45,938 nucleotides of DNA from Myxococcota bacterium. GTDB taxonomy: Bacteria; Myxococcota_A; Polyangia; Polyangiales; Houyiibacteriaceae. The stretch spans positions 1 through 45,938 of the forward strand of contig JANQQS010000223.1 of the NCBI GenBank assembly GCA_028284955.1. The letters run 5' to 3'. Both the position numbers and the translations under genes were made by a program. A model generated the notes under the pieces. It had not been told where the DNA came from and ran no database searches. It was given only the letters and a program-made list of their open reading frames with translations. Shown here in pieces: positions 7,393 through 11,063 of the stretch; within the stretch, counting starts at the first letter, position 1; every line of letters starts with the position of its first letter.

Positions 7393-8087
7393 TGTCGTGA
7401 ACCAAAAATCGCCGTGCCAATCCGAACTGAAGTCGCCCCCTGTGCGATGGCTTGCTCGAAGTCGGACGACATGCCCATCGAAAGCTCGGGCAGTTCTAAG
7501 GCTTCGGCCAGGTGGCGAAGGCGCGCAAAAAATGGCGCTGCATCGATGCTGGCAGGGGGCACCAGCATGAGCCCTCGGAGATGTAGATTCGGCAGCGCGC
7601 GCGCCGCTTCGACTACTCGGGGCACATCTTCTTCGGCGCAGCCGGATTTTTGCTCCTCGCCGGCCAGATTGACCTGCACCAGCACGTCGACCTCGCGTTC
7701 TTCGGTGTGCGCGCGCCGCGATAGTGCTTCGGCCAAGCGAACCGAATCAAGCGAATCGAGGGTCGCGCCCGTGCGGAGAAGCGGGCCCACTTTGTTGCGC
7801 TGCAGGTGTCCGACAAAACGAAAACGCAGGGGTTCGCGGCCTCGCTGCATGAGGTCCTTGAGCAACTCGGCTTTTTCCACAAGCTCTTGAACGTAGTTTT
7901 CGCCAAATACCCGAACGCCTGCGTCGTATGCCTCGCGTATGGCGTCGACACCGTGGCGCTTCGATACCGCCACCAGTTCGACCTCTTCAGGGGCTCGACC
8001 TGAGCGCGCGCACGCCGCGTCGATGCGCGCGCGCACTGCCAACAATCGACGACGAACATCTGTCACGGGCCCAGGTTCTACGGCCAT
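7389..8087 (-). CDS. yggS: PLP homeostasis protein, YggS/PROSC family
   Basis: 232 aa from ATG 8087; a single-domain TIM-barrel protein that binds pyridoxal phosphate and keeps free PLP and amino-acid pools balanced, with no known catalytic turnover. Visible family motifs are LVAVSKRHG with the PLP Lys43, FGENYVQEL, FRFVGHLQRNK, LVQVNLAGEEQKSG, GLMLVPP and LSMGMSSDFEQAIAQGATSVRIGTAIFG. The frame is open another 66 codons upstream, but that stretch overlaps maf. The start overlaps the maf stop by 10 bp and the stop overlaps the next start, placing it in the middle of the operon. Confidence 0.93.
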   Translation of the reverse strand: MAVEPGPVTDVRRRLLAVRARIDAACARSGRAPEEVELVAVSKRHGVDAIREAYDAGVRVFGENYVQELVEKAELLKDLMQRGREPLRFRFVGHLQRNKVGPLLRTGATLDSLDSVRLAEALSRRAHTEEREVDVLVQVNLAGEEQKSGCAEEDVPRVVEAARALPNLHLRGLMLVPPASIDAAPFFARLRHLAEALELPELSMGMSSDFEQAIAQGATSVRIGTAIFGSRQ

Positions 8088-8692
8088 TCCGTAACCCCGC
8101 CATGCTCCACCAGCGCCAATAAAGTTTCCGCGAGGGGCAAGCCAACGACGTTGGTGTACGAACCATCCATCCGTGTCACCAATGCCGCGCCATGCCCCTG
8201 AACGGCATAGGCGCCTGCTTTGTCGTCTCCCTCCCCCGTGGCCGCGTAGCGACTTATTTCGGCGCTGCTGAGAGCACGAAACCATACCCGGGTGGTCACG
8301 GCGAGCTCCGTCAGAATCGCCCGTTCGCCACCACGCACGCGGCCCAGAGCAACCGCAGTGGTCACCTCGTGGCCACGTCCCGACAGCCGCTCCAGCATCT
8401 TCGTGGCGTGGTCTCGATCGCGAGGCTTTCCCAAAATGCGATCGTCGACAACCACGATGGTGTCTGCCGCAAGCACAAAAGGTTCGCCGTCTGCCGAGTC
8501 ACGAGCGAGCTCCATACCCCGAGACAGTTTGTCGCGGGCAACGCGCGTGACGTACCGGGGAGGCGATTCGCCATCCGCAATGTCTTCGTTGACATCGGTG
8601 ACCTTGATCGCAAAGGCAAGGCCGATTTGGGTCAGCAAGTCGCGACGCCGCGGAGATCCGGACGCGAGCACCAAAGAAACGGTTTGGCGCAT
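8078..8692 (-). CDS. maf: Maf-family nucleoside triphosphate pyrophosphatase
   Basis: 204 aa; Maf proteins hydrolyse non-canonical or canonical NTPs (often dTTP/UTP or modified nucleotides) to monophosphates and have been tied to control of septum formation. The N-terminal ASGSPRRRDLL motif, the AADTIVVVDDRILGKP segment and the late GDDKAGAYAVQGHGA segment are all present, so the enzyme looks intact at the usual length. It lies 5 bp after the MinD-J-HTH gene and overlaps yggS, a common partner. Confidence 0.93.
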   Translation of the reverse strand: MRQTVSLVLASGSPRRRDLLTQIGLAFAIKVTDVNEDIADGESPPRYVTRVARDKLSRGMELARDSADGEPFVLAADTIVVVDDRILGKPRDRDHATKMLERLSGRGHEVTTAVALGRVRGGERAILTELAVTTRVWFRALSSAEISRYAATGEGDDKAGAYAVQGHGAALVTRMDGSYTNVVGLPLAETLLALVEHGGVTEWP

Positions 8693-8697
8693 CGAGC

Positions 8698-10431
8698 CTA
8701 CCGACTTAGGGCGTCGCCGGAAGTTCGGCCGTCGAGATAGCGCTGGTATCGACGAACAAACGTGCGGCTGACTTGCTCGCTGTCGAGACGAAGATATTTG
8801 GCCATTTCGGTCACGAACCCCCGCACGTAGACGAGCGCGGGAAGAAGAGCAAACTCCTCGGCTTCGATGGCGCTCAAATACGAAGCTCCGATCTTAGTAT
8901 GCTGGCTTACTTCTTTGATGTGCACGCCCTGAGATTCGCGCACTGCGGCAAGCAAGCGGCCGGTAAACTCGGTATCCGGCGTGATCACAGGCGCCGGCTG
9001 CGGGGGTTCGGAAAGCTCGTGTTCGGTGTCTTTGTCGCGCTCAACCTCCGGCTCGTTGGGAAATACCGATAACTCGTAGGGCCTTCGGCGCTCCGGATCG
9101 AGCAACACATCGTAGGCTTCGTCGAGCAAGTTGCGAAGCGCTTCAAGCCCGCGCTGGTCGAACAACCCGTACCGGCACAACGAATCCGGCGCGTAGATTT
9201 CCTTGCACCGCTTGTAGGCGCGCCGAACCTCTTCGTCGGTAGCTCCGCGACTCACTTCCAATAGGTCGTGGTAGCTGTCTACGGGGACGATACGCGTGTC
9301 GACGCGTGATTTGCCGGCATCGATGGCGAGCAGCCGGCGGGCGATCTTCTCGATACTCTTGCTCGCCTTGGTGCCCGGGCTCTCCACGAGAAGCGGGCGG
9401 TGCGCGCGGACGCACGTCCACACCGTATCGTCGTAGTCGATGTAGCCAAGGTACTCGAGCCCCAATCCGAAACGGCGACGCATCGCGCTGCGCATTCGAT
9501 CGCCGAGCTCGAGGTCAGCCCGAAGTCGGGTCTGGTTGAGAACCATGCGAAACTTGAAGTCGCGCATGATTCTCTGCGCGGGGACCAACACCGGGTTGTC
9601 CTTCTGATCGAGCTCGCGCGCCAAATCGAGAGGCGGAAGGGGCGGCTGGCCAGGCTTTTGCGCTGGTAACGGCGGCAGCTCGCCGAGCTCGGCCACTTCG
9701 CGGTCGAGCATGCGTCGAAACGTCGAACGCACGAAGCGGTAGGTGTTTTCGATAGCGGTGGGTTCAGGCAGCGAGACGAACAACGAAAGATCGGCATCGA
9801 TCCAGAAATCGATCAACTCCTCGCGGCTCCCCGATCCGAGGTCCACCACGACGTAGTCCACGTCGGCGCCATCCCATTGCTCGGATGATCTCAGTTCCGC
9901 TGCGCGGATGGCACCCGGCTCGATTCGAACAAGCTTGAGACCAGGAATGGGCGTGTCCAGCGCGGGCGCGAGTTCGCCCGCTGAGCGCGGTGGCGACGAA
10001 CGTGAACGCTCTGCGTCCGTTTCGGTTGATCCGTCTGCTGGGGACGGCCCGAACAAGTCGCTTGTGTCAATATCGATGGTCGGCGGAGGCTCGTGACGCC
10101 CGCCAAGCAATGGGACCGGGGGCGTGTACTCGCCTAGATGGCGCGAAGGCGACATGCCGAGAAACGTGTGCACGTTTGCGCCATGAGGGTCGGCATCGAC
10201 CATCACAACTTTCCGGCCGATGGTCGCCAAATAAATGCCGAGGTTCGCGGTAAGCAGAGATTTCCCGACCCCGCCCTTGGCCCCCGAAATCGCGACGATG
10301 CGGCGCGGCCGGCGGGAGATGCGCGCTGAGGCCGACGCCTCCGCTTCAGCGTCCTCTTCTTCAAACATGGGATCGCGGAACAACTCGAGGTCGCCCTGTG
10401 CGTCACCGCGATCGTGGTCGGCTTCGGCCAT
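8698..10431 (-). CDS. MinD/ParA-type ATPase fused to a J-like domain and a RodZ-type HTH
   Basis: 577 aa from ATG 10431 (the frame is open further up, but that part overlaps the HNH gene). Residues 42-375 form a SIMIBI ATPase with a deviant Walker A KGGVGKS (52-58), VDADPHGANVHTFLG and VVVDLGSGS; a Pro/Ser-rich insert lies around 100-165 and another Pro-rich stretch around 250-270. Residues 386-452 resemble a J domain (YHDLLEVSRGATDEEVRRAYKR, then LLDEAYDVLLDPERR), but the HPD that activates DnaK is replaced by APD. Residues 490-563 match the RodZ/HTH_25 helix-turn-helix (VRESQGVHIKEVSQHTKIG, YLSAIE, VYVRGFV). No transmembrane segment follows, unlike RodZ. It probably positions something in the cell or couples nucleotide state to DNA binding; the job is unknown. 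Confidence 0.8.
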   Translation of the reverse strand: MAEADHDRGDAQGDLELFRDPMFEEEDAEAEASASARISRRPRRIVAISGAKGGVGKSLLTANLGIYLATIGRKVVMVDADPHGANVHTFLGMSPSRHLGEYTPPVPLLGGRHEPPPTIDIDTSDLFGPSPADGSTETDAERSRSSPPRSAGELAPALDTPIPGLKLVRIEPGAIRAAELRSSEQWDGADVDYVVVDLGSGSREELIDFWIDADLSLFVSLPEPTAIENTYRFVRSTFRRMLDREVAELGELPPLPAQKPGQPPLPPLDLARELDQKDNPVLVPAQRIMRDFKFRMVLNQTRLRADLELGDRMRSAMRRRFGLGLEYLGYIDYDDTVWTCVRAHRPLLVESPGTKASKSIEKIARRLLAIDAGKSRVDTRIVPVDSYHDLLEVSRGATDEEVRRAYKRCKEIYAPDSLCRYGLFDQRGLEALRNLLDEAYDVLLDPERRRPYELSVFPNEPEVERDKDTEHELSEPPQPAPVITPDTEFTGRLLAAVRESQGVHIKEVSQHTKIGASYLSAIEAEEFALLPALVYVRGFVTEMAKYLRLDSEQVSRTFVRRYQRYLDGRTSGDALSR

Positions 10432-10472: not shown

Positions 10473-11063
10473 CTACTCGGCAGCGCCTGCCGCCGCGAGA
10501 AATGGCTCCCATTCGGCGATTTTCTGGTGGATGCTCGCGAGTTGAACCACAACGCTCCAGTTCGGCCGCCGCGGACGCTTGAGCAGCCGCATGCCACACT
10601 CCTCGGGAGTGCGCGCGCCCTTTTCGAGGTTGCAGCGGCGGCAACTCGCAACAAGGTTTTCCCAGGTCGATTCGCCACCTCGCGAGCGCGGTATCACATG
10701 GTCGAGATTGAGATCGCGAGGGTGGGGCTGACAGCCGCAATATTGGCAGGTGTAATCGTCGCGCAGCAGGATGTTGCGGCGGGACAACCGGAGCGGCGTG
10801 CGGGGTACGCGGTTGTATTCGCGAAGCAGAACAACTCGTGGAGTGCGAACTCCTCCGGACGTGGTGCCGACGAACGGTTCACCGTCGACCGGGCCGAGGG
10901 CGGCCCAACCGTCAAAGTCGTAGACTTCGTAGTCTGAATCGAGGGCGTGGGCTCGATCGACATAGAGCATGAGAAACGCATGCCGGACAGTCGTCACGCG
11001 CACGGGTTGATAATTTCGGTTGAGCACCAACACAGGCGCGATCAGTGGATCGTGTGCGCTCAT
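10473..11063 (-). CDS. HNH endonuclease family protein
   Basis: 196 aa, first gene of the minus-strand operon. After a beta-rich N-terminal half (VLVLNRNYQPV, PRVVLLREYNRVPR), the HNH nuclease core spans about 108-155: two zinc-binding pairs CQYCG and CRRCN flank LDHVIPRSRGG, with ENLV and NLEKG as usual. This subfamily of stand-alone HNH proteins is widespread and not part of a restriction system here; no methylase is near. Its biological substrate is not established. The MinD-J-HTH gene starts 41 bp downstream. Confidence 0.85.
   Translation of the reverse strand: MSAHDPLIAPVLVLNRNYQPVRVTTVRHAFLMLYVDRAHALDSDYEVYDFDGWAALGPVDGEPFVGTTSGGVRTPRVVLLREYNRVPRTPLRLSRRNILLRDDYTCQYCGCQPHPRDLNLDHVIPRSRGGESTWENLVASCRRCNLEKGARTPEECGMRLLKRPRRPNWSVVVQLASIHQKIAEWEPFLAAAGAAE

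Follow-up and report, generated by a model that had tools for sequence, protein, structure and literature searches.

What might a cell do with a protein that joins an ATPase of the MinD/FlhG type to a J-like domain and a RodZ-type helix-turn-helix (HTH) domain? A gene for such a protein lies in the window analyzed here, a 45,938-nucleotide stretch (positions 1 to 45,938 of contig JANQQS010000223.1) from the Myxococcota assembly GCA_028284955.1, which is assigned to the family Houyiibacteriaceae of the order Polyangiales. A first-pass annotation, made from the DNA sequence, had read a MinD/ParA ATPase, a J-like domain, and a RodZ-type HTH in this one polypeptide, and both the Pfam matches and the structural models agree with it (Table 1). 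The open reading frame (ORF) starts with an ATG at position 10431 and ends at 8698 on the minus strand; it has no internal stops, and its GC content at codon positions 1, 2, and 3 is 0.678, 0.457, and 0.725, respectively.

Table 1. Features of the three-domain gene and its immediate neighbors (positions are those of the window; residues are those of the encoded protein)
Feature	Position	Strand	Basis
Whole gene, 577 aa: FlhG/MinD-type ATPase, J-like domain, and RodZ-type HTH	8698..10431	-	ORF, Pfam, AlphaFold models
FlhG/FleN/MinD-type ATPase domain, residues about 41-375; deviant Walker A KGGVGKS at 52-58; low-confidence insert at about 97-144	9307..10311	-	Pfam ParA/CbiA, VIA-align
Terminal helix of the ATPase domain, basic and amphipathic, residues about 355-374 (core SIEKIARRLLA), which may target the membrane	9310..9369	-	Model helix 355-374
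J-like domain, residues 387-453, APD at the HPD position	9073..9273	-	Pfam DnaJ, E 1.2e-8
RodZ-type HTH (HTH_25), residues 493-554; its long C-terminal helix extends to residue 576 or so	8770..8955	-	Pfam, E 3.2e-19
HNH_5 endonuclease-family gene, directly upstream (41-nt gap)	10473..11063	-	Pfam
maf gene, directly downstream (5-nt gap)	8078..8692	-	Pfam Maf, E 1.3e-56

In addition to DnaJ and HTH_25, the protein matches the Pfam families ParA (residues 43 to 96, E 9e-14) and CbiA (residues 46 to 344, E 3.3e-13), all of them above the gathering scores. It has no membrane helix (the best 19-residue Kyte-Doolittle mean is 1.22), in line with the earlier description of its HTH as RodZ-class yet free of a membrane segment. 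The predicted folds of all three domains are backed by AlphaFold models. The model of the whole protein is only fair (mean pLDDT 76.8, pTM 0.58), so it does not give the mutual packing of the domains; that of the J-HTH part is confident, with a mean pLDDT of 89.9.

The fusion itself had been flagged as an unusual single-protein combination. It is real, but it turns out to be one form only, as other classes and phyla have two adjacent genes instead. Among 37 genomes (the window's own and those of its relatives), all had some match; it was strong (E 1.7e-40 or better) in 35, the exceptions being G002 and G008. The phylum was sampled through 282 genomes out of a larger set, and 116 of these matched at E 1e-20: 41 of the 42 from the order (own family included), 7 of the 16 from the rest of the class, and 68 from elsewhere in the phylum. 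The idea of a one-off fusion without relatives, which the first-pass annotation had held open, can be rejected, since the gene and its architecture are present in those 41 of 42 sampled genomes of the order. A profile of the J-HTH part detected the two-domain module in 114 of the 282 genomes (E 1e-38 or better); the majority (168) lack it.

All parts are found in a single ORF in 46 of 46 loci of the relatives and in all 10 additional loci taken from the order and class. All 10 loci from other classes are split, with an ATPase ORF followed by a separate J-HTH ORF. A scan with the ATPase profile across phyla yielded at least 385 confirmed relatives; in the best 80 named loci, a J-HTH-like ORF adjoins the ATPase or, in one case (L136), is fused to it in 36. 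The titles of these 36 records name Myxococcota or Deltaproteobacteria, Bacteriovoracaceae, Bdellovibrio, Desulfurivibrio, Desulfobacteraceae, Nitrospiria, Thermoanaerobaculales, Holophagaceae, and others; the split pair also occurs in records of Bdellovibrionota, Desulfobacterota, Nitrospirota, and Acidobacteriota. In all 85 cases with a separate partner ORF, both ORFs share one strand. The pairing of the ATPase with J-HTH is older than the phylum Myxococcota.

The fused proteins fall in one clade of 59 rows (52 fused, 6 split, and 1 other; support 99, in quick trees with SH-aLRT support only), which fits a single fusion event; the split rows within it may be later fissions. At two loci (L057:9250-10983 and L058:8657-10426), the ATPase and J-HTH ORFs are in the same frame with one stop codon between them (TAG and TGA, respectively), an arrangement intermediate between the fused and split forms. 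Spirochaetes (L124, L096, L101, and other Treponema, Borrelia, and spirochaete records) have a branch of the same ATPase family, and no J-HTH neighbor was found in the flanking DNA examined at these loci.

The gene neighborhood is a housekeeping setting that tells little of the mechanism. The earlier claim of a housekeeping-like operon with maf and an HNH gene holds insofar as the HNH_5 and Maf neighbors are confirmed and the housekeeping-like character of the locus is conserved; beyond maf, on its downstream side, lies a YggS/alanine-racemase-N-type gene. The maf setting, however, is that of the window's own group, and many split pairs precede an rluD-type gene. In split loci of the phylum, a frequent order is HNH, ATPase, J-HTH, rluD-type pseudouridine synthase, and yfiH-type gene. 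The HNH cluster was seen in 11 of 21 loci, and many of the phylum's split pairs likewise have an HNH gene on their upstream side; among the loci listed, the rluD-type cluster is found in 25 and the yfiH-type cluster in 17, compared with 46 for the system's own cluster. Typing of neighbors by Pfam covered 10 proteins, 3 of which had no match. A search of the open-licence literature returned no paper describing this architecture, which, given that scope, is weak evidence of absence; the passages searched in a survey of one bacterium's ParA/MinD ATPases (PMC10241942) contain no mention of DnaJ, helix-turn-helix, or MreB.

Among solved structures, FleN/FlhG are the closest to the ATPase domain by profile (E 1.2e-34), Foldseek, and VIA-align, the last of which matches model residues 41 to 372 to FleN (5j1j_B) with Z 24.4 over 233 aligned residues (rmsd 2.9). 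This agrees with the FlhG-type ATPase proposed at the outset. MinD, ParA/Soj, and the nitrogenase iron protein share the predicted fold at Z 20 to 22. NCBIfam models gave only partial matches far under their cut-offs (49 bits versus 212.9 for TIGR01968 and 51.3 versus 201.75 for TIGR01969). The domain resembles MinD/ParA in its deviant Walker A, which fits KGGxGKS/T, and in its fold; unlike them, it stays well under the NCBIfam MinD cut-offs (51 versus 202 bits), and no MinC, MinE, or ParB partner was seen.

The nearness to FlhG/FleN (4rz2, 5j1j), like the three flagellin matches in the window's own genome, speaks for an FlhG-type regulator of flagellar number or placement, with the HTH as its output to flagellar genes or machinery. 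Flagellin is found in 55 of the 114 system-positive genomes and in 61 of the 168 without the system, a weak positive association (Fisher p 0.049, kinship uncorrected). A purely flagellar role is at odds with the other 59 of the 114 positive genomes, which have no flagellin match and include G001, G011, G017, and G018, all listed as 100% complete. The system also differs from FlhG/FleN in that the ATPase is partnered by J-HTH, not by FlhF or FleQ, in that the P-loop lysine is gone in some lineages, and in the lack of an N-terminal DQAxxLR, the FlhG motif that activates FlhF. A loose regular expression applied to the 60 residues before the domain found this motif in none of 137 system ATPases, but also in none of 44 relatives without J-HTH. 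No flagellar family was present among the 10 Pfam-typed neighbor proteins. A flagellum-only role is disfavored, and we consider a flagellar regulator of this kind an unlikely answer.

The lysine losses bear on another alternative, in which the ATPase fold would be kept as a dimer or docking platform, a structural scaffold for which nucleotide turnover is irrelevant. Of 181 ATPases, 26 have another residue in place of the P-loop lysine, and 25 of these belong to the 59-row clade. The 26 comprise 18 of the 52 fused, 7 of the 77 split, and 1 of the 6 J-only rows. On the tree, the lysine changed about 8 times, and well-supported branches require at least 4 of these events; the signature lysine has changed to arginine in 17 of 181 rows. 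These losses argue for the scaffold and imply that ATP switching cannot be general, and ATP turnover may be dispensable in the lineages lacking the P-loop lysine. On the other hand, the window's protein and most members retain both lysines. In addition, the named loci came through a Walker A pattern permitting only K or T at this position, which biases the proportion of lysine loss in them and not in the loci of the G genomes, which were chosen otherwise. We regard a pure scaffold as a rather improbable reading.

The helix that ends the ATPase domain has a mean hydrophobic moment of 0.80 across 182 family members, compared with a background of 0.43, and a net charge of +1.8; the moment exceeds the 90th percentile of the background at 77% of sites. 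In 59 of 85 split ATPases, the helix lies no more than 15 residues from the stop. MinD carries an amphipathic basic membrane-targeting helix at the same end of its ATPase, and by this likeness the ATPase is probably membrane-associated via its end helix.

The ATPase is also found with other tails. One relative in the window's own genome (L191:570-2549, G000:C121) ends in a PilZ domain (E 2.1e-11), as does that of L146, a Sandaracinaceae record; the PilZ-tailed relative is possibly a c-di-GMP-coupled version. With such tails in its relatives, the ATPase resembles a core whose outputs can be exchanged. Two very long ORFs, L118:4854-7847 (998 aa) and L122:5872-10389 (1,506 aa), start with this ATPase and have no Pfam match in the remainder.

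The J-like domain had been described as a degenerate J domain with APD in place of HPD. The same residues were found here, and the model has a J fold, as seen in its VIA-align match to the J domain 2och (Z 10.2, 66 aligned residues, rmsd 1.8), so the earlier concern that the region might be no J domain in structure prediction can be set aside; with Foldseek alone, the best J match reached only E 0.0086. What does not hold is degeneration as mere decay. HPD is found in none of the 135 loci with a readable triplet (2 of the 137 gave none), and no triplet has H in the first position; the second residue is P in 42 and the third is D in 49. A decay of HPD confined to this lineage is rejected by the same count. 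The loop that follows is conserved: of about 135 rows, S is found in 89, L in 89, A in 90, Y in 94, S in 76 or G in 47, L in 89, and F in 74 along the loop. By these counts, this is a J-like subfamily with a loop motif of its own.

An ordinary co-chaperone, bringing DnaK to the ATPase or to an MreB complex in the manner of other J proteins, would account for the J fold (Z about 8 to 10), for a Pfam DnaJ score above the cut-off, and for the basic helix II retained in the fused group (RRAYKR). In contrast to DnaJ and other J-domain proteins, the system lacks HPD, its first-position histidine included, in all 135 readable cases and has a distinct conserved loop there, which makes canonical stimulation of DnaK unlikely; the co-chaperone reading appears very improbable to us.

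The ATPase and the J-like domain mostly occur together, which suggests that the J-like domain makes the connection to the ATPase, with the HTH as output. An HTH is not always required, as the partner keeps J without HTH in 4 loci (L090, L098, L120, and L125); it keeps HTH with J not scored in 2 (L088 and L089), and two further cases (L177 and L182) stop at contig ends. The gene after the ATPase in L125 (L125:6792-7871) encodes a J-like domain (DnaJ, E 1.7e-10) and a second ATPase (AAA_31), tyrosine kinase-like by eye, with no HTH.

For the HTH, the best VIA-align match is RodZ from its co-crystal with MreB (2wus_R; Z 11.7, 83 of 87 residues aligned, rmsd 2.3), followed by YmfM/RodZ (3fym; Z 10.4, 82 aligned, rmsd 4.2), and the first HigA row comes at Z 7.9. 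In one study, F60 and Y64 of Escherichia coli RodZ are reported as critical for MreB binding, and for the Y66A and F70A variants of the chlamydial Ct009 no interaction with MreB was detected (PMC4047632). An aromatic residue occupies the F60-equivalent position in 130 of 131 proteins and the Y64-equivalent position in 130 of 131. The two positions were mapped partly on the E. coli sequence. YxRGF is also part of the HTH_25 make-up, so the conservation of these aromatics is not independent evidence for MreB binding. Nor is co-occurrence informative, since MreB is nearly universal in the sample (MreB-family matches in 281 of 282 genomes).

Could the HTH bind DNA instead, as the first-pass annotation had allowed? 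The protein would then be a transcription regulator gated by the ATPase as FleN gates FleQ, a known pair of an ATPase and a transcription factor (8p53, 7ejw), and both the HTH fold and the match to DNA-bound HigA structures, at the lower Z of 7.9, could be read in this way. RodZ ranks above HigA as a structural match (11.7 versus 7.9), and the recognition helix is acidic, with a mean net charge of -2.0 and a value of -1 or lower in 125 of 131 proteins, which argues against DNA binding. That part of the annotation therefore looks unlikely, and transcription regulation strikes us as quite improbable.

The system shares with RodZ (2wus chain R, 3fym, 4gqm) the HTH_25 domain, the aromatic pair at the reported MreB-contact positions, and the best structural match. 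It differs from RodZ in that the protein has neither a membrane helix nor, among its Pfam matches, RodZ_C, in that it is joined to or paired with an ATPase through a J-like domain, and in that a membrane RodZ-like protein is encoded separately in the window's own genome. No membrane segment (19-mer mean of at least 1.6) was found in the J-HTH match plus 30 residues in any of 137 loci; L086 has a hydrophobic tail beyond the J-HTH region. The separate protein (L147:1213-1722, G000:C1) is short and contains HTH_25 and one membrane helix but no RodZ_C; it is encoded beside a recO-like gene, named by eye from its translation. Canonical RodZ_C is found in 0 of 114 system-positive and 36 of 168 system-negative genomes (p 1.6e-9), or in 1 of 120 versus 35 of 162 when six more genomes, with J and HTH matched apart or at contig ends, are counted. 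We considered the system as a replacement for RodZ and rejected this, because RodZ_C is limited to a few families (f30, f32, f35, f38, f52, and f53) and the window's own genome has a membrane HTH_25 protein.

The reading we prefer, held tentatively and at somewhat less than an even chance, is that of a soluble adaptor that docks on MreB and works with an FlhG-like, possibly membrane-seated ATPase to which it is coupled; it is in keeping with the adaptor that the first-pass annotation had envisaged. This would be a two-part system, here fused in a single polypeptide. The first part, the FlhG/MinD-type ATPase, would dimerize with ATP and be seated on the membrane, and the second, soluble part would combine the HPD-less J-fold domain with a RodZ-type HTH, whose docking partner is probably MreB. 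The J-like domain would link the ATPase to the HTH; through the HTH, the switch would govern MreB or a complex bound to MreB, so that wall growth or a polar structure could be placed or paced. What the analysis observed are the domain folds (as predictions), the old pairing of the parts, the J-loop motif, the aromatic pair, and a window protein free of membrane helices; attachment to the membrane, contact of J with the ATPase, ATP switching, MreB binding, and the biological output are inferences. A precedent for a contact between RodZ and Min proteins comes from Bacillus subtilis, where RodZ is reported to bind the Min protein MinJ (PMC5778138). A bolder and, in our judgment, doubtful version is an ancient positioning system in which a membrane-cycling MinD/FlhG-type ATPase directly patterns MreB via a cytosolic J-RodZ adaptor, with the HPD-less J subfamily as the coupling. 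Such a positioning system, if true, would be undescribed.

ParA/MinD ATPases and the MreB cytoskeleton are two main bacterial ways of organizing space. Direct links between them are known in few cases. If the RodZ-type domain binds MreB, this gene pair would be a testable link between ParA/MinD and MreB in predatory bacteria, myxobacteria, and several other phyla. The conserved HPD-less J-like subfamily offers a clean case for roles of J domains apart from DnaK, and the system may join two cell-organizing systems that are usually studied separately.
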